A stretch of DNA of 55,157 bases from Isosphaeraceae bacterium. GTDB taxonomy: Bacteria > Planctomycetota > Planctomycetia > Isosphaerales > Isosphaeraceae. A program made the position numbers and the translations under genes. The notes beneath the pieces are model-generated. The model had not been told where the DNA came from, did not search any database, and was given only the letters and a program-made list of their open reading frames with translations. The stretch is taken from assembly GCA_025356475.1 (NCBI GenBank), contig JANXSX010000074.1:1-55157 (forward strand), in the 5' to 3' direction. Shown here piece by piece: positions 41,118 through 48,733 of the stretch. Each line of letters begins with the position of its first letter. Positions within the stretch are counted from its first letter, which is position 1.

Positions 41118-42440
41118 CTAACGCGGGCCTAGGTCGTAGAGATCTCTCGGAGTGTCATGAAGGATCTGCTGGAGGATCGGCGGCAGCTCATGCTCTTCGT
41201 GGAACCCTAGCTCAACGAGATGAGCAAGGGCGGACGACATCGCCTTCTTGACGACGGCGAGTTTCCCATAAGTCCACTCGGCGTAGTAGGCGTCGCATAG
41301 GAAGCCACCGATCTTCGTCATCGGGGCAACCTGGAGCCGCAAGCCGATGATTTTCTCGATCGTGGCGGGGAAGAAGTTGTGCCACCAGTAGCCCGACGCA
41401 TAAATGTTCGGGAACTGCCGAGTCAGTACGGCGACCTCGTGCGTCAAGACGTCGGAGGCCATCATCAGGTCGAATCGGGCGTTGCCGAAATGATGAAACG
41501 AGCGAGCCATCTCGCTCGTCCAGTTCTGCTGGAACCGGGGGATGCTCTTCCCGTCGCAGATAAAGTATTCGGCACCAACCGCGATCTGGAACGCCTTCTT
41601 CTGTTCGTGATGCCACTCGAGCACTTTCCACGAGACAAATCGACTCAACGCATCAAGGTCCGCTTCGACCAGCGGAGTGCTCTTGGTACGGCTGAGAATT
41701 CGATCCACCTGCGCGATGTCGGGAGGTTCGAACCGCTGTTCGATCGGAATAAACGTGTTCGAGAACCGAACTCGCCCGGAGATCGTCAGGTCCAGCCAGT
41801 TGAAGACCTGCCGTTCCAAGCGTTCTGCACTCGCGGGTCGCTCGCCGGCAAAGAGCTTTGTGAGGGCGTCCAGATACTCGGACTTGGTATGCCGGCCCGC
41901 GAAGAAAGGTTCCAGGTCGGTCGCGACACCTGGGCAGAAGAGATAGTGGGCGTCGAGCATGTAGAGGAAGTGATCGGGCGAGTCGTTGATATTCGCCGGG
42001 GCGTTGCCCAGGGAGGTCACGACCGTCTTAATATTACAACGGTCTTTGAGGACATAGTCCGCCCAAGCAGGGTCGGCACCGGTCTTGGCGACTTTGTCGA
42101 AAAGGTCTTTATAGTTCGACTCAGTGAGGTCGTAATCGGTGAAGTCGTAGAGGTCGCGGAAGATCCGGAACAGGCACCAGGCCATCGCCGTATTGCGCAT
42201 CCGCTTCAGGTAGGGGATCGACCTACGAACCCGTTCATCCGCAGGCAAAGCCAGGTCGAAATCGGTCGCAGGCATGCCGACCGACTTGAGTTCGGTTTGA
42301 ACCCAGTGGTAACTCATCAGCGACGCGAGATCGGGGGCTTGGGGCCTCGCGGCGTTGAGGTGGGTGTGGGGGTCGATGAGCGGCGTCGCGCTGATCATGC
42401 GTTCGATGCGCTGGGGGAGGGTGGGTTCACTGGTGAACAT
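41118..42440 (-). CDS. Uronate-isomerase-like amidohydrolase-superfamily protein
   Basis: The sequence resembles glucuronate (uronate) isomerase of the amidohydrolase superfamily, which interconverts uronic and keto acids. PLIDPHTHLNAARPQAPDL supplies the HxH metal pair of the first strand, and the motifs WKVLEWHHEQKKAFQIAVG and ASGYWWHNFFPATIEKIIGL fit later strands of the barrel. The identity to the classical enzyme looks low, so the substrate may be different. The start at 42440 (about 440 residues) is chosen because the frame before it is not family-like. In-frame starts up to 42527 are possible, and no clear ribosome site decides. It is convergent with the gene at 40706 and divergent from the UVR gene. 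Confidence 0.75.
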   Translation of the reverse strand: MFTSEPTLPQRIERMISATPLIDPHTHLNAARPQAPDLASLMSYHWVQTELKSVGMPATDFDLALPADERVRRSIPYLKRMRNTAMAWCLFRIFRDLYDFTDYDLTESNYKDLFDKVAKTGADPAWADYVLKDRCNIKTVVTSLGNAPANINDSPDHFLYMLDAHYLFCPGVATDLEPFFAGRHTKSEYLDALTKLFAGERPASAERLERQVFNWLDLTISGRVRFSNTFIPIEQRFEPPDIAQVDRILSRTKSTPLVEADLDALSRFVSWKVLEWHHEQKKAFQIAVGAEYFICDGKSIPRFQQNWTSEMARSFHHFGNARFDLMMASDVLTHEVAVLTRQFPNIYASGYWWHNFFPATIEKIIGLRLQVAPMTKIGGFLCDAYYAEWTYGKLAVVKKAMSSALAHLVELGFHEEHELPPILQQILHDTPRDLYDLGPR

Positions 42441-42551
42441 CGCGGCAATGCCATCGGGACAGAGGATCAGATTGATCGAAGATTTTTCGTGAGTGCCCAT
42501 CATCAGAATGTCCGCCAATGATGTCAATCCGCCCTGATTCGACTCTGTTTG

Positions 42552-43388: not shown

Positions 43389-44270
43389 TCAGCTCCAGAC
43401 GACATCGTGAGCGGCGAAGATTGGCCCCTCGACACAGACACGCTTCAAATCTGTCGATCCGTCACTCTGGCGGATCGGCGCGACGCAACTGAAGCAAACG
43501 CCAAAGCCGCAGGCCATGTGGTTTTCTAACGAGAGGTCGCAAGGTACGTCGTACTCTGCGACCAACTTCGAGAGCGCCGCAAGCATCGCAGGGGGTCCGC
43601 AACCGACGACCTTGGCGGGCCGTTCGTTGCGTGCAAGTCGAGCCCGAAGTAGGTCGGTGACATAACCGTGGTGGCCAATCGAGCCGTCGTCGGTCGCGAG
43701 TTCGACGTTGATCCCAGCCGCTTTGAAGTCGCTTAGCCCCGCTGCCATCTCGGCGGAACGAATTCCATAGAGGAGTGTCGCCGATCTCGCAGGCTGTTGA
43801 ACCTGAATCCCACCGTATTCGCTGCGGCCCAACCACCAACGCCCGAGCGCCAGGAAAGGGGTCTGCCCGATCCCTCCGGCAACGAAGAGGACTTCGCCTT
43901 CTATAGGAGGAAGCCCAAACGGATGGCCGAGCGGCCCCCAGATGCTGAGTTCATCCCCTTGCCGACACCTCGATAGGGCTGAGGTTCCTTTACCGACTAC
44001 GGTATAGACCACGGAAATCCCAGTTGGGACCCCTTTATCGTCACGCTCGACTTCATAGAGCGCAAATGGCCGTCCGAGCAGGGGGTCACTCCCCCCTGGC
44101 GGACGGACCATTAAGAATTGCCCTGGAAGCATCGACGCCGCCATCGCCGGGTCGTCGACCGTGAGCTGAAAGGTTTCGTGGGCAACCTGATGGTTGGCCA
44201 CGACCTTCACAACACGTTGGAACGCACAGGCGGGGGCGACCGCGAAGCCTCCAGGATGATCCATACTCAT
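43389..44270 (-). CDS. pyrK: Dihydroorotate dehydrogenase electron-transfer subunit
   Basis: PyrK carries FAD and a [2Fe-2S] cluster and passes electrons from dihydroorotate dehydrogenase (PyrD) to NAD+ in pyrimidine synthesis. GRPFALYEVERDDKG near residue 68 is the FAD-binding motif, and LFVAGGIGQTPFLALGRWWL the NAD-binding loop. The cluster cysteines are in MACGFGVCFSCVAP and RVCVEGP. The length, 293 residues, is somewhat above average. No pyrD gene is adjacent, so the partner lies elsewhere. A closely related family, such as sulfhydrogenase flavoproteins, is possible but less likely. It is alone on its strand, next to the pseudouridine synthase. Confidence 0.9.
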   Translation of the reverse strand: MSMDHPGGFAVAPACAFQRVVKVVANHQVAHETFQLTVDDPAMAASMLPGQFLMVRPPGGSDPLLGRPFALYEVERDDKGVPTGISVVYTVVGKGTSALSRCRQGDELSIWGPLGHPFGLPPIEGEVLFVAGGIGQTPFLALGRWWLGRSEYGGIQVQQPARSATLLYGIRSAEMAAGLSDFKAAGINVELATDDGSIGHHGYVTDLLRARLARNERPAKVVGCGPPAMLAALSKLVAEYDVPCDLSLENHMACGFGVCFSCVAPIRQSDGSTDLKRVCVEGPIFAAHDVVWS

Positions 44271-44303: not shown

Positions 44304-46628
44304 TCAATCGTTACCCTTGCGCCTCGGCTTAGTGATCGGCTTGGGACGGCGTTTGAGGTTAGGGCGAGGACCTTCGTTATCACCTTCCGACTGAAGGCCA
44401 ATGATCTTTCGACCAGGGGGTTCGGTCGAAAAGGGACGGCTTGGTCGTCTGGGGGTGTTGGACATGCCGCCGCCAGGACGCGCTGGCCGACCGGGACCGC
44501 CACTTCCCCCCTGACGCTGCGAAGGAGGCAGGCCATCCGGAAGAGGAATCCGAGCACCAGGGCTGGGAGCGTCCCCCTTCATCGGCCTGACGGTTCGACC
44601 GGGCCGGGGAGTCGTTGGACCATCACTCATGGGAGGTCGTCCTTCGCCGGGAGGCCGGGGGGGGCTCGATCGATCCGACATCATCGGAGGACGATTGTCT
44701 GAACGGGGAGGCCGGGGGCCATTGTTCATCGGAGGACGACCACCGCCACCGTCACGAGGCGGTCCGCCTTGGAAACGGGGGGCAAAACCACCAGGGCGAG
44801 GGCCATCCTGATAACGGGGGCCAGAGCCACCATCGCGAGGAGGACGAGGGCCATCATTCATCGGTGGACGACCACCGCCATCGCGAGGCGGACCACCCTG
44901 GAAACGCGGGCCAGAGCCGCCGGGACGAGGGCCATCCTGATAACGGGGGCCAGGGCCACCATCGCGAGGAGGGCGAGGGCCATCATTCATCGGTGGACGA
45001 CCACCGCCATCACGCGGCGGACCACCCTGGAAACGCGGGCCAGAGCCGCCGGGACGAGGGCCATCCTGATAGCGGGGGCCAGGACCACCGTCTCGGGGGG
45101 GGCGAGGCCCATCATTCATCGGCGGACGACCACCACCATCGCGCGGCGGCCCACCTTGGAAACGCGGGCCAGAGCCGCCGGGCCGTGGGCCATCCTGATA
45201 ACGGGGGCCAGGGCCACCATCGCGGGGGGGGCGAGGCCCGTCGTTCATCGGCGGACGACCACCGGATCGGGGGGGGCCATCCTGGAAGCGAGCGGGGCCT
45301 CCACCAACGGGTCGTCGGCCGGGGAATGTCCCCTCCGAGGAGGGTCGGGAAGGTCGCGGGTAGCCAGGACCATCGGGTCGGGGGCCGGACATCATCGGTC
45401 GTCGATCGCGTTCCGCAGACGGTCCACCCAGGTGGGGAGCTGCCCCCGCGCCACCGATGCCGGTCCGTGCTTCGCCGCGTCGAGGAGCTCTAGGAGCAAT
45501 CGGTCTATCAGCCATCATCCACGGCATCGACACCGGGATTCCGGCAGCGACCTTCTGGAGTAATTCAACTTCGTAAGAGGTCAACGCTCGCCACTGTCCG
45601 AACTTCAGCCCTTTCAAGGTCACAGGCCCAACCGCAACGCGGGTCAGGCTCATCACCTTGTGGCCGAACTTGGCAAGCATCCGGCGAACCTCGCGGTTCT
45701 TGCCTTCAGCCAGTACCATTTCCAGAATCGTTGCTTCACCTTGGTGACCGACGACCCGGACGCGCTTCGCCCGAACCTTACCCTCGGCCAGCCAGATTCC
45801 TTCGGTGAGCTGGGTAATCACCTCTTGCGAGGGGTTCCCGGCCACCACAACTCGATAGAGCTTCTCAACACCGTATTTGGGGTGGGTCAGCTTGTTGGCG
45901 AGTTCGCCATCATTGGTCAGAAGGATCAAGCCCACCGACATCTCATCGAGCCGACCGACGGTATAAACACGTTCCGGAAGCTCGGGCATCAGGTCGATGA
46001 CTCGCGGACGCCCTGACGGGTCTGCGTTTGTCGATACATAGCCCTTGGGCTTATTGACCGCGTAGTAAACAGGCTTCTCAACCTTTACTGTCTGGCCGTC
46101 GACCTGAATGTTGCACTTGCGGGGATCGACCTTGGTACCAAGCTCACGGACAACAACACGATCGACAGTCACGCGACCTTGAAGGATCAATTCTTCACAG
46201 GCCCGACGCGATCCAAGACCTGCATGAGCAAGGATCTTCTGAATTCGATCTTCATCCGCACTGCTCGTCGACTTGGGAGTTCGCGAGCGGTCCTGGGCTG
46301 GCTTACGGATCGCGCCCGAGGCGGAGGCACCAGTGCCAGGACGAGGTCGGCGAGCGTCACCTGAAGCGGAAGAACCGGTGCCAGGGCGAGGCCGGCGAGC
46401 GTCACCTGAAGCGAAAGAGCCGGTGCCGGGACGAGGCCTACGAGCCTCGCCCGAAGGAGAAGAACCAGTGCCGGGACGAGGTCGGCGAGCGTCACCCGAA
46501 GCGAAAGAGCCGGTGCCGGGACGAGGTCGGCGCGGACCCGACGCGAATTTGGGTCTGTTACTGGAAGGGGGCCCATTCGGGCGTCTGGGTGACTGTCCCT
46601 CCCGACGAGGGGGGCGGCGGTCGGCCAT
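44304..46628 (-). CDS. RsuA/RluB-family pseudouridine synthase with repeat arms
   Basis: The core modifies uridine to pseudouridine in rRNA. An S4 domain (RIQKILAHAGLGSRRACEEL) starts near residue 127, and the catalytic Asp is at 228 in GRLDEMSVGLILLTNDG. The enzyme should be about 250 residues, but the protein is about 774. The N-terminal arm contains five 15-residue copies of RRPRPGTGSxxSGxA. The C-terminal arm has about four and a half copies of a 43-residue Arg/Gly/Pro-rich unit (RFQGGPPRDGGGRPPMNDGP, then RPPRDGGPGPRYQDGPRPGG). These arms are positively charged and disordered, and probably bind RNA. The ATG at 46628 is preferred; the frame extends to 46730. Confidence 0.92.
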   Translation of the reverse strand: MADRRPPRREGQSPRRPNGPPSSNRPKFASGPRRPRPGTGSFASGDARRPRPGTGSSPSGEARRPRPGTGSFASGDARRPRPGTGSSASGDARRPRPGTGASASGAIRKPAQDRSRTPKSTSSADEDRIQKILAHAGLGSRRACEELILQGRVTVDRVVVRELGTKVDPRKCNIQVDGQTVKVEKPVYYAVNKPKGYVSTNADPSGRPRVIDLMPELPERVYTVGRLDEMSVGLILLTNDGELANKLTHPKYGVEKLYRVVVAGNPSQEVITQLTEGIWLAEGKVRAKRVRVVGHQGEATILEMVLAEGKNREVRRMLAKFGHKVMSLTRVAVGPVTLKGLKFGQWRALTSYEVELLQKVAAGIPVSMPWMMADRPIAPRAPRRGEARTGIGGAGAAPHLGGPSAERDRRPMMSGPRPDGPGYPRPSRPSSEGTFPGRRPVGGGPARFQDGPPRSGGRPPMNDGPRPPRDGGPGPRYQDGPRPGGSGPRFQGGPPRDGGGRPPMNDGPRPPRDGGPGPRYQDGPRPGGSGPRFQGGPPRDGGGRPPMNDGPRPPRDGGPGPRYQDGPRPGGSGPRFQGGPPRDGGGRPPMNDGPRPPRDGGSGPRYQDGPRPGGFAPRFQGGPPRDGGGGRPPMNNGPRPPRSDNRPPMMSDRSSPPRPPGEGRPPMSDGPTTPRPGRTVRPMKGDAPSPGARIPLPDGLPPSQRQGGSGGPGRPARPGGGMSNTPRRPSRPFSTEPPGRKIIGLQSEGDNEGPRPNLKRRPKPITKPRRKGND
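44707..45290 (-). repeat. 129-base tandem repeats in the C-terminal arm
   Basis: The DNA unit is 129 bases (43 codons), repeated about four and a half times with few changes. For example the phrase GGAAACGCGGGCCAGAGCC recurs at about 44900, 45029 and 45158. Near-identical DNA as well as protein suggests recent expansion or gene conversion. Long antisense frames arise here only because of the repeats. Confidence 0.85.
46308..46532 (-). repeat. 45-base tandem repeats in the N-terminal arm
   Basis: Five copies of a 45-base unit encode RRPRPGTGSFASGDA and close variants. The unit differs from the C-terminal one in length and sequence, so the two arms were made by separate expansions in one gene. 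Confidence 0.85.
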
Positions 46629-46739
46629 AAGTCGGTCCAATCTCAATCGATCAGCGATCAATTTGTCTGACAATTCTTGATTTACGATTCTGTAGTGTAC
46701 GGCTTTGAGCGGCGTTTTGTCCACGAACATTACGCCAGG

Positions 46740-47831
46740 TCACGCCGGCTGCTGCTGCGTAAGGCAGTGGATCGTCCCCAAGCCCCAGACGAGATCGACT
46801 GCGTGAATGCCCACCACTTCCCGATCTCGGAACGCTTCCGCTAAGAGATTCAACGCAATGCGGTCGGCGGGGTCGTTGAACGTCGGCACCAAAACGACCG
46901 AATTCCCAATGTAAAAATTTGCATAACTCGCGGGGAGACGCTGTCCTTCAAAAACCACAGGCCTTGGCATCGGCAGCTCAATCACATCGAAACTCTTACC
47001 ATCTTGATCCCGCGCCTGGGCAATCCGCTTCCGGTTCGCTGCGAGCGGCTCATGGTTCAGATCATTCGGGTCCGGCTCAACGACAATCGCAATGGTACTT
47101 GGCCCAACGAAACGCGCAATGTCGTCGACATGTCCATGGGTATCGTCGCCATCAATCCCCTTGTCGAGCCAAATCACGTGGCGCGTACCAAGGTAATCGT
47201 GGAGCGCCCGTTCGATTTGCTCGCGAGTCAGGCTTGGGTTTCGAGCTTGAACGTCCGAGAGCAAACACTCTTCGGTGGTTAGCACGGTCCCCTGGCCATT
47301 GACCTCAATCGAACCCCCTTCTAACACGACTCGGATCATCTCGCCCTCGCTGGTACTGGCACGGGCCTTCCAGCGTGGTAATTCGAGGGCTTTGGCGATC
47401 TTGCGCGGAAGTTTATCGTCCTGAAGGTGATTGTCGTACTTGGCCCAGCCGTTAAACTTCCAGTCGACACAACCCAACCGCAACTCGGGTGCTTCTCCAT
47501 CTCTCACGACGAAGGTCGGGGCCGTGTCGCGCGTCCAGACGCGATCCGTCCGCATCTTGTGGAAGGTCACCTTGTCGAGGTCAACCCCAGCCAAATCCAG
47601 CCTTTCGCTCGCTTGCCGCCGTGCGCACCCATCATTAATGAGAATATGCACATGCTCAGAGCGAGTGAGATTGCGAACGATCTCGGTGTAGACCCATGGG
47701 ATCGGCCCGAACTTGCCGGGCCAATCTTCGCGCTGGTGGGGCCAGGCGATCCAGGTTGCCGAGTGGAGTTCCCACTCAGCGGGCATCCGGTAACCAAGGG
47801 ACAATGGTGTTTCAAGGGACATGGAGGTCAT
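46740..47831 (-). CDS. aguA: Agmatine deiminase
   Basis: Agmatine deiminase converts agmatine to N-carbamoylputrescine plus ammonia. It belongs to the guanidino-modifying (PAD-like) family. The active-site cysteine is in GTIHCLTQQQPA near the C-terminus, the catalytic His in GDDTHGHVDDIARF, and RVWTRDTAPTFVV provides Arg/Asp positions. LEGGSIEVNGQGTVLTTEEC is a family hallmark. The protein is 363 residues. The ATG overlaps the stop of the upstream aguB-like gene as ATGA, so the two are coupled. With the next step encoded upstream, this supplies putrescine from arginine-derived agmatine; an agmatine-forming decarboxylase is not in the window. Confidence 0.95.
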   Translation of the reverse strand: MTSMSLETPLSLGYRMPAEWELHSATWIAWPHQREDWPGKFGPIPWVYTEIVRNLTRSEHVHILINDGCARRQASERLDLAGVDLDKVTFHKMRTDRVWTRDTAPTFVVRDGEAPELRLGCVDWKFNGWAKYDNHLQDDKLPRKIAKALELPRWKARASTSEGEMIRVVLEGGSIEVNGQGTVLTTEECLLSDVQARNPSLTREQIERALHDYLGTRHVIWLDKGIDGDDTHGHVDDIARFVGPSTIAIVVEPDPNDLNHEPLAANRKRIAQARDQDGKSFDVIELPMPRPVVFEGQRLPASYANFYIGNSVVLVPTFNDPADRIALNLLAEAFRDREVVGIHAVDLVWGLGTIHCLTQQQPA

Positions 47832-48733
47832 GCTCGGGGGAGGGGTTCATCAAGATAGCGACGCGTGAGCCCACCATAGGCATCAATCCGCCGATCACGC
47901 AGGAATGGCCAATTTCGGCGGGTTTCTTCGATCAGGGCAGTGTCGCAGTCGACAATCAGGACCGTCTCATCCGTGTGGTTGGCTTCGGCCAGGACTCGAC
48001 CATAAGGATCGGCAACGAAGGACCCGCCCCAGAATTCGAGACCGGCGTCGGCTGAGCCTTCATGACCCACCCGGTTCACCGCCGCAACGTACAGCCCGTT
48101 CGCAATGGCGTGGGCTCGTTGCATGGTCTTCCAGGCGTCGGCCTGCGCCTCGCCGAACTCCGCCTTCTCACGAGGGTGCCAACCAATGGCCGTCGGGTAG
48201 AAAAGGACTTCCGCCCCTTGTAGGGCGGTCATCCGAGCGGCCTCCGGATACCACTGATCCCAACACACGAGGGTGCCAATCTTGGCCTTCGAGGTCGGGA
48301 TCGCCTGAAAACCAAGGTCACCCGGCGTAAAGTAATACTTCTCGTAGAACAAGGGATCGTCGGGGATGTGCATCTTGCGATAGACCCCGGCTCTCGTTCC
48401 ATCCCCATCGAAGACGACGGCGGTGTTGTGATAGATTCCTGCCGTCCTGCGCTCAAAAATCGAGCCCACAACCACCATCTTGGTGAATTTGGCCACTTCA
48501 GATAAGGCTTGAGCGGTCGGTCCATCAAGCGGCTCGGCCAGATCGAAGATCGACGGGTCCTGGACCTGGCAGAAATAGTGAGTCTTGAACAGCTCTGGGA
48601 GGCAGGCGATATCCGCGCCCTGGTCGGCCGCTTCGTAAAGCCGATCGCATGCTTTGCGAAGGTTGGCGACGGGATCAGGTCCAACCTGCATCTGGATCAA
48701 AGCAATTTTGAAGCGTCGGGCCGAGGTGCGCAT
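47828..48733 (-). CDS. aguB: N-carbamoylputrescine amidase
   Basis: This nitrilase-superfamily enzyme hydrolyses N-carbamoylputrescine to putrescine, CO2 and ammonia. The catalytic triad is visible: Glu in CLPELFKTHYF, Lys in VYRKMHIPDDP, and Cys in LVCWDQWYPEAAR. FYEKYYFTPGDLGF is characteristic of this subgroup. At 301 residues the length is normal. It is the first gene of a two-gene operon with agmatine deiminase, which confirms the assignment. It starts from ATG at 48733. No clear promoter was found. Confidence 0.95.
   Translation of the reverse strand: MRTSARRFKIALIQMQVGPDPVANLRKACDRLYEAADQGADIACLPELFKTHYFCQVQDPSIFDLAEPLDGPTAQALSEVAKFTKMVVVGSIFERRTAGIYHNTAVVFDGDGTRAGVYRKMHIPDDPLFYEKYYFTPGDLGFQAIPTSKAKIGTLVCWDQWYPEAARMTALQGAEVLFYPTAIGWHPREKAEFGEAQADAWKTMQRAHAIANGLYVAAVNRVGHEGSADAGLEFWGGSFVADPYGRVLAEANHTDETVLIVDCDTALIEETRRNWPFLRDRRIDAYGGLTRRYLDEPLPRA

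Follow-up and report, generated by a model that had tools for sequence, protein, structure and literature searches.

Repeat-built basic arms and a conserved tail motif on an RluB-type pseudouridine synthase of Planctomycetia

Introduction

The closest described relative of the enzyme considered here is RluB of Escherichia coli, the synthase of pseudouridine 2605 in 23S rRNA. According to the available portion of the structural report, RluB ends in a 40-residue C-terminal tail that is predicted to be disordered, was removed for crystallisation and is called poorly conserved, while Glu135, in the bulge-binding loop, contacts A2602 (PMC3919597). RluB has also been reported to be present in the precursor particles which build up when RlmE is missing (PMC11194073). 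Outside this group of enzymes, excerpts on the single-stranded DNA-binding protein SSB describe a disordered linker with a conserved C-terminal tip (PMC12143593). Here we analyse an RluB/RsuA-type gene in a 55,157-nucleotide stretch of DNA (the window) that covers positions 1 to 55,157 of contig JANXSX010000074.1 from an Isosphaeraceae bacterium of the Planctomycetota (assembly GCA_025356475.1). The encoded enzyme carries long basic arms on both sides of its core, and three signs point to a function of its tail: selection inside the repeats, a charge and composition found family-wide, and a motif that stands behind spacers which are themselves replaced.

Purifying selection inside the repeat arrays

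The initial annotation, made from the DNA letters alone, described a pseudouridine synthase flanked by five 15-residue and four and a half 43-residue repeats that together exceed its core, and this anatomy was borne out. The N arm holds five 15-aa units and the C arm four complete 43-aa units and part of a fifth, in arms of 120 (N) and 408 (C) aa, counted from a start at 46628, against a core of 246 aa. Tandem Repeats Finder (TRF) returned two tandem arrays only in the whole 55-kb window, both within this gene, and placed the C-arm array at 44707-45264 (period 129, 4.3 copies). The same annotation took the 129-base units for near-identical DNA; their DNA identity is 81-92%, and near-identity holds for the protein instead. 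Units 1 to 3 agree in all 43 residues while their DNA differs at 10-12 third positions, all of them synonymous. By the Nei-Gojobori method these three units have a synonymous divergence (dS) of 0.34-0.43, a non-synonymous divergence (dN) of 0 and a proportion of synonymous differences (pS) of 0.27-0.33; unit 4 lies farther off (dS 0.49-1.09, dN 0.033). Between adjacent units, the C array shows 34 synonymous and 3 non-synonymous differences (omega 0.037; binomial P 2.6e-15) and the N array, with its 15-aa units, 14 and 7 (omega 0.24; P 1.3e-3).

This test was extended to arrays whose period is a multiple of three and no shorter than 24 bases, with at least 75% identity between neighbouring units and at least five changed codons. 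Twenty-one such arrays from 14 Isosphaeraceae orthologues, the window's two arrays included, contain 249 synonymous against 84 non-synonymous changes, where about 70% would be expected to be non-synonymous; the median omega is 0.20, and the binomial P falls below 0.05 in 16 of the 21. The repeat protein is under purifying selection. Comparing synonymous with non-synonymous change between tandem units provides a test, within a single genome, of selected versus neutral protein repeats.

Comparisons between species agree with this picture and also date the array. Over six same-genus species pairs, the ratio of non-synonymous to synonymous proportions (pN/pS) is 0.22 in the N arm and 0.28 in the C arm, against 0.08 in the core; the arms therefore change more quickly than the core, though still under constraint. 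Five of the six pairs have indel columns in their C arms, and arm lengths vary within genera. In the same pairs pS spans 0.23-0.60 in the core and 0.32-0.71 in the C arm. The divergence among units 1 to 3 lies inside the core range and at or below the low end of the C-arm range, which puts the array at about the age of the species splits within genera. The C-arm expansion is therefore not very recent, nor is it ancient, and the earlier proposal of a recent expansion has to be given up.

A conserved motif distal to the arrays

Among 45 Isosphaeraceae genomes (the same GTDB family), 38 carry the gene at E <= 1e-40, and the genus of the window genome contains this one genome alone. The 38 matching genomes gave 37 loci (G019 left out), from which we dropped L016, L029, L031 and L032, whose contigs end inside the C arm, to reach 33 complete, distinct orthologues. 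In 30 of these 33 the tail carries a short motif, whereas 2000 shuffles of the arms gave 0.35 on average and at most 4. It forms a short aliphatic patch within sequence poor in isoleucine, leucine, valine and methionine, with variants such as RRIIGLD, RRVIGME and RKILGLE, and lies 33-90 residues from the C-terminus. In all 23 orthologues that have both the motif and a C-arm array (TRF score of at least 80), the motif is distal to every array, and in most orthologues a basic block follows it (alignment A1), the two together making up a tail module. Three tail fragments on separate contigs that start inside the arm (G016, G020 and G021) have the motif as well. The orthologues L036, L083 and L084, all of one genus, retain the arms and the terminal basic block and offer a natural motif-minus comparison with L085.

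A profile of the module is specific in the window genome, where it matches this gene at 1.4e-6 and has its next match at E 0.189. Within the family it yields 27 matches, of which 21 lie in the orthologue and three on the tail contigs just named, while the remaining three are ambiguous or weak (L213, L214 and L215), among them one with an internal stop (G030:C79, E 0.004) that is probably spurious. We also considered whether the motif is common to other proteins of the window genome and rejected this, since a pattern scan gave 12 hits against 11 in the reversed control. On the class tree, which bears on a single or a repeated origin of the motif, its distribution takes 12 changes to explain (shuffle mean 35.9), with seven or more of them forced by starred branches, a count that may be inflated by four cut-contig Isosphaeraceae rows scored as motif-less; the tails of L029 and L032, with the motif, lie on other contigs. 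Elsewhere in the class, 76 loci from other families were read; of the 48 tails that are uncut and no shorter than 40 aa, 11 carry a related motif by a pattern composed after the tails were read (shuffle mean 0.20, maximum 3). Forms of the type x-[IV]-I-G-[GADY] appear in families f5, f11, f17 and f18, and in three f5 members at the extreme C-terminus (GSIIGGD, GPIIGGD). As a separate observation, all five f15 tails read (L115, L116, L164, L172 and L178) have a terminal GKAS[ST]WR stretch in common, and two of them (L115 and L116) contain long runs of GRPGSGRPGSG or GAGRPTGAGRPV units.

Folding of the motif back onto the core was rejected on the AlphaFold model, in which block means of the predicted local distance difference test (pLDDT) are 37-44 at the motif. 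On that model the motif's binding target, if it has one, is more likely to be another molecule.

Arms across the family

Both arms are present in 33 of 33 complete orthologues, with an N arm of 37-309 aa, an upper bound because it is counted from the first ATG, and a C arm of 173-408 aa. Their arginine, glycine and proline (R+G+P) content has a median of 57%, in keeping with the composition first noted for the window's arms, and their net charge runs from +0.08 to +0.16 per residue (+0.11 in the window's protein); proline is the commonest residue of the window's C arm (101 of 408). The repeat units vary between most genera, and certain same-genus pairs have common units. An AlphaFold model (36 sequences) assigns block means of 89-98 to residues 131-360, with 219 residues at 90 or above, and places 464 residues below 50, nearly all of them in the arms, which are accordingly predicted to be disordered. 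Searching the genome with the C arm found nothing else similar at E 0.001, and the five further matches to PF00849 in the genome all lie in open frames of 200-335 aa; such arms are therefore not a general habit of this genome.

The initial annotation had likened the arms to RGG domains that may drive condensation with RNA or with precursors of the ribosome. In such a reading the stickers would be arginine together with the tyrosine and phenylalanine of the 43-residue units. The likeness stands as far as predicted disorder and positive charge go, and each 43-residue unit does include RYQDG and RFQGG, and aromatics make up 3.4% of the window's arm residues; a precedent exists in Bacteroides Rho, which is reported to condense, driven by RNA, through short charged motifs of an intrinsically disordered region (PMC13269538). 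It fails for the repeated tripeptide itself: with the first ATG as start, the 562 residues of the arms contain no RGG and one RG, and the family medians are RGG 0 and RG 4. Aromatics range over 0.4-4.9% across the family's arms and sink to the lower figure in relatives that retain the arms, so aromatic stickers are not a family property, and condensation has no need of a conserved hydrophobic tail motif. We consider sticker-based condensation unlikely; charge-driven coacervation of the arms with RNA may nevertheless occur.

A more sceptical explanation is that a tolerant terminus in GC-rich DNA gathers functionless in-frame tandem duplications by slippage. The turnover of units between most genera and of arm lengths within genera would be expected from it, an array of family f3 (L136) has an omega near 3, and one antisense frame of the arms equals the coding frame in R/G/P richness, so that composition alone is no proof of function. 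As the sole cause of the arms a GC artefact was rejected, because f3 genomes, of similar GC, are mostly without long arms: the median C arm is 26 aa in f3 (11 uncut loci, some chosen for long frames) at a median flank GC of 0.63, against 262 aa at 0.65 in Isosphaeraceae. Neutral expansion also sits poorly with units 1 to 3 being identical in protein at their observed pS, with the omega values of the C array and of the 21 arrays together, and with the presence of the arms in every orthologue and of the motif in nearly all. The substitution pattern, the family-wide arms and the tail motif hence disfavour it, and we judge it improbable.

The catalytic core and its assignment

That the core is a pseudouridine synthase was confirmed by models for both domains, PF01479 (S4) followed by PF00849 (PseudoU_synth_2), each above its cut-off, and by TIGR00093 (159.5 bits, cut-off 109.3), which places the protein among RsuA, RluB, RluE and RluF. 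The window protein keeps the catalytic aspartate in GRLDEMSVG and a conserved tyrosine in KYGVEKLY; in a 36-row alignment (A2) the G and R of GRLD are invariant and the L and D are present in at least 90% of rows. The best solved relative of the core is E. coli RluB (4lab, 1.4e-40), and a Foldseek search with the AlphaFold model placed chains of the RluB-RNA complex (4lgt) on top (E 2.5e-26, 38% identity). The NCBIfam RluB equivalog is the best of four equivalogs matched, at 156.6 bits against a cut-off of 290. At the Glu135 column the window protein has glycine, as do most homologues with a readable loop (36 loci gave no pattern match). We therefore class the enzyme, as a stand-alone rRNA pseudouridine synthase, in TIGR00093 and with the RluB type, U2605 being only a candidate target.

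Homologues are widespread: at 1e-35 they occur in 242 of 248 genomes of the class, a sample of genomes of at least 90% completeness taken from a larger group. One contig binned as Bacteroidales (L047) carries a planctomycete-type homologue (59% identity) that groups with family f3 in the tree, and it is probably misbinned.

Start site and neighbourhood

The longest open reading frame (ORF) spans 44304..46730 (-) and encodes 808 aa, an in-frame ATG at 46730 adding 34 aa to the product. The start at 46628 is better supported on sequence grounds, because 15 of the 33 complete orthologues begin with a similar M-x-(R)-PPR. Antisense genes on the plus strand (44615-45493 and others) were rejected, since the differences between units are nearly confined to third codon positions of the frame on the minus strand.

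Table 1. Coordinates of the pseudouridine synthase gene, its parts and its neighbours in the window
Feature	Position	Strand	Details
Armed pseudouridine synthase gene, RluB/RsuA type	44304..46628	-	774 aa from the likely start (MADRRPPRREG...)
N-arm array, five 15-residue units (RRPRPGTGSFASGDA type)	46308..46532	-	TRF 46315-46532, period 45, 4.8 copies
S4 RNA-binding domain	46122..46247	-	PF01479, 36.9 bits, residues 162-203 of the 808-aa ORF
PseudoU_synth_2 catalytic domain	45669..46067	-	PF00849, 78.6 bits, residues 222-354 of the 808-aa ORF
Catalytic Asp of GRLD	45945-45947	-	codon checked
C-arm array, four full 43-residue (129-base) units	44742..45257	-	incomplete unit 5 reaching about 44703
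Tail motif GRKIIGL (about R-[RK]-[IV]-[IL]-G-[LM])	44394..44414	-	30/33 orthologues
Basic block LKRRPKPITKPRRKGND at the C-terminus (tail module, second half)	44307..44357	-	alignment A1
Neighbour, PyrK-like (dihydroorotate dehydrogenase electron transfer subunit-like)	43389..44270	-	best NCBIfam model below cut-off
Neighbour, agmatine deiminase-like (PF04371)	46740..47831	-	TIGR03380 266 bits, cut-off 381.8
Neighbour, N-carbamoylputrescine amidase-like	47828..48733	-	TIGR03381 294.4 bits, cut-off 410.25

The genes on either side look metabolic (PyrK-like and agmatine pathway-like). The PyrK-like neighbour has a tblastn match in 50 of the 69 loci compared, mostly of Planctomycetia, and so marks a deep synteny; 36 loci (L154-L189) were left out of this comparison, and some contigs are short. 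Directly upstream of the gene for this arginine-rich protein stand the agmatine deiminase-like gene, of the peptidyl-arginine deiminase family, and the amidase-like gene, a pair also present in six loci (L038, L039, L046 and L087-L089, where L046 and L088 are one place). The pair is most likely an ordinary agmatine pathway; deimination of the arms' arginines by the deiminase-like product is only a thought. Farther off, a 469-aa ORF at 41118-42527 (-) has no Pfam match at E 0.001 and overlaps a 380-aa ORF on the opposite strand.

These surroundings bear on the possibility that the arms serve RNA or DNA other than rRNA (mRNA, a degradation complex or the nucleoid) or a regulation of turnover, with RRIIGL as a non-ribosomal docking site or a site for a chaperone or protease. 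A hydrophobic patch with arginine flanks fits generic peptide-binding sites. RluA is reported as the major mRNA pseudouridine synthase in E. coli (PMC11421799), which shows that pseudouridine synthases can have targets outside rRNA. No partner was found, however, and the neighbours are the metabolic-looking genes just described; we hold this possibility to be unlikely, slightly more so than sticker-based condensation.

Discussion

We think it somewhat probable that the arms form a disordered, polycationic tether, which keeps the enzyme bound to rRNA or a 50S precursor and offers a partner its docking motif. Being long, disordered and polycationic, they are suited to a loose and mobile binding of rRNA. 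In this model, the arms would act as a non-specific electrostatic tether that keeps the enzyme on 23S rRNA or a 50S precursor, while the repeat array, as a length-tolerant linker, would present the tail motif; a ribosomal protein, an rRNA fold or an assembly factor are candidate partners. The target would lie in the domain V stem-loop around 2604/2605, which is the weakest part of the proposal. That the tail motif is kept while the adjacent repeats change suggests a working role as tethers for the arms, as opposed to genetic junk. More tentatively, and short of what we would call probable, the motif may be an undescribed feature of Planctomycetia RluB-type enzymes that docks them on one particular partner during 50S assembly, with the arrays as selected linkers whose units are conserved within a genome and replaced between lineages. 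What began as a low-complexity oddity thereby turns into a specific question, namely what the RRIIGL tail binds.

Several observations weigh against a tethering and docking role. Five of the 21 arrays are non-significant, among them the N arm of L027 with an omega of 1.7, and L136, one of two arrays from outside Isosphaeraceae, reaches an omega of 3.0; these two values mean, therefore, that the unit test is able to return neutrality. Adjacent-unit comparisons share units, and hence all the binomial P values are approximate. The motif patterns were composed after the sequences had been seen, a bias in favour of the count of 30 in 33, and a stricter pattern finds 23 of 33 (shuffle mean 0.26, maximum 3). 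The motif is absent from L036, L083 and L084, whose congener L085 has it, and over 45 family genomes the module profile matches in 26 and not in 19. AlphaFold puts the motif neither on the core nor in a fold, in a model that cannot test a partner in trans. With regard to the target, the Glu135 column of RluB is Gly here (KYGVEK), the RluB equivalog score falls below its cut-off, and a search of the window's assembly for a 23S gene found none. For E. coli it is reported that re-expression of RluB in a ten-enzyme deletion strain leaves the growth or assembly defect unrelieved, and that cells without any rRNA pseudouridines grow nearly normally (PMC11194073).

Comparison with known systems

Relative to E. 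coli RluB (4lab, 4lgt and 9cl9), the window enzyme has the same S4 and catalytic core with the same Asp and Tyr positions, and differs in its 408-aa repeat tail and its N arm. In 9cl9, whose title names an intermediate fraction with RluB bound, the RluB chain has 283 residues (278 by Foldseek); at that length, part of the E. coli tail is probably ordered on the precursor.

Planctomycetia are not alone in having RluB-type enzymes with repeat-built basic arms. In Alphaproteobacteria the same RluB-like core carries polycationic, partly repeat-built arms, on both sides in Shinella and Sinorhizobium and at the C-terminus in Paracoccus and Sphingomonas. The armed protein of S. meliloti has 573 aa, with arms of about 48 and 296 aa; the Sphingomonas coding sequence, annotated 'pseudouridine synthase' (WP_347091255.1), has its start at the core, that of Paracoccus is of uncertain start, and the Pseudorhodobacter homologue has a short tail only. 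Their repeat units and their motif are different, and the alphaproteobacterial and planctomycete arms look convergent. All four Rhizobiaceae sequences read (L216, L217, L218 and L222) have a hydrophobic stretch, SNVWMAPGARP, within their variable and basic C arms, and it may be a counterpart of the tail motif seen in planctomycetes. A homologue from a metagenome-assembled genome of Bacteroidia (L072) likewise has a repeat-built basic arm, of 257 aa, but only at the N-terminus and of Lys/Phe/Asp-rich units (FGDKPAFKRR).

RGG or glycine/arginine-rich (GAR) domains have Arg/Gly richness and disorder in common with the window's arms, which are without RGG tripeptides and, in the C arm, are led by proline. 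Among the matches listed from the open-access literature, none describes the Planctomycetia tail motif or selection acting in the arrays, and none treats linear motifs or disordered arms of pseudouridine synthases from planctomycetes.

In layout, the armed enzyme resembles SSB, to which it has no kinship: the fold of SSB is unrelated and binds DNA. The SSB tip binds partner proteins and is acidic, whereas the armed enzyme combines a polycationic linker with a basic-aliphatic motif. The linker half of this SSB-like logic is found here, as a sequence-variable disordered linker that ends in a conserved distal motif.

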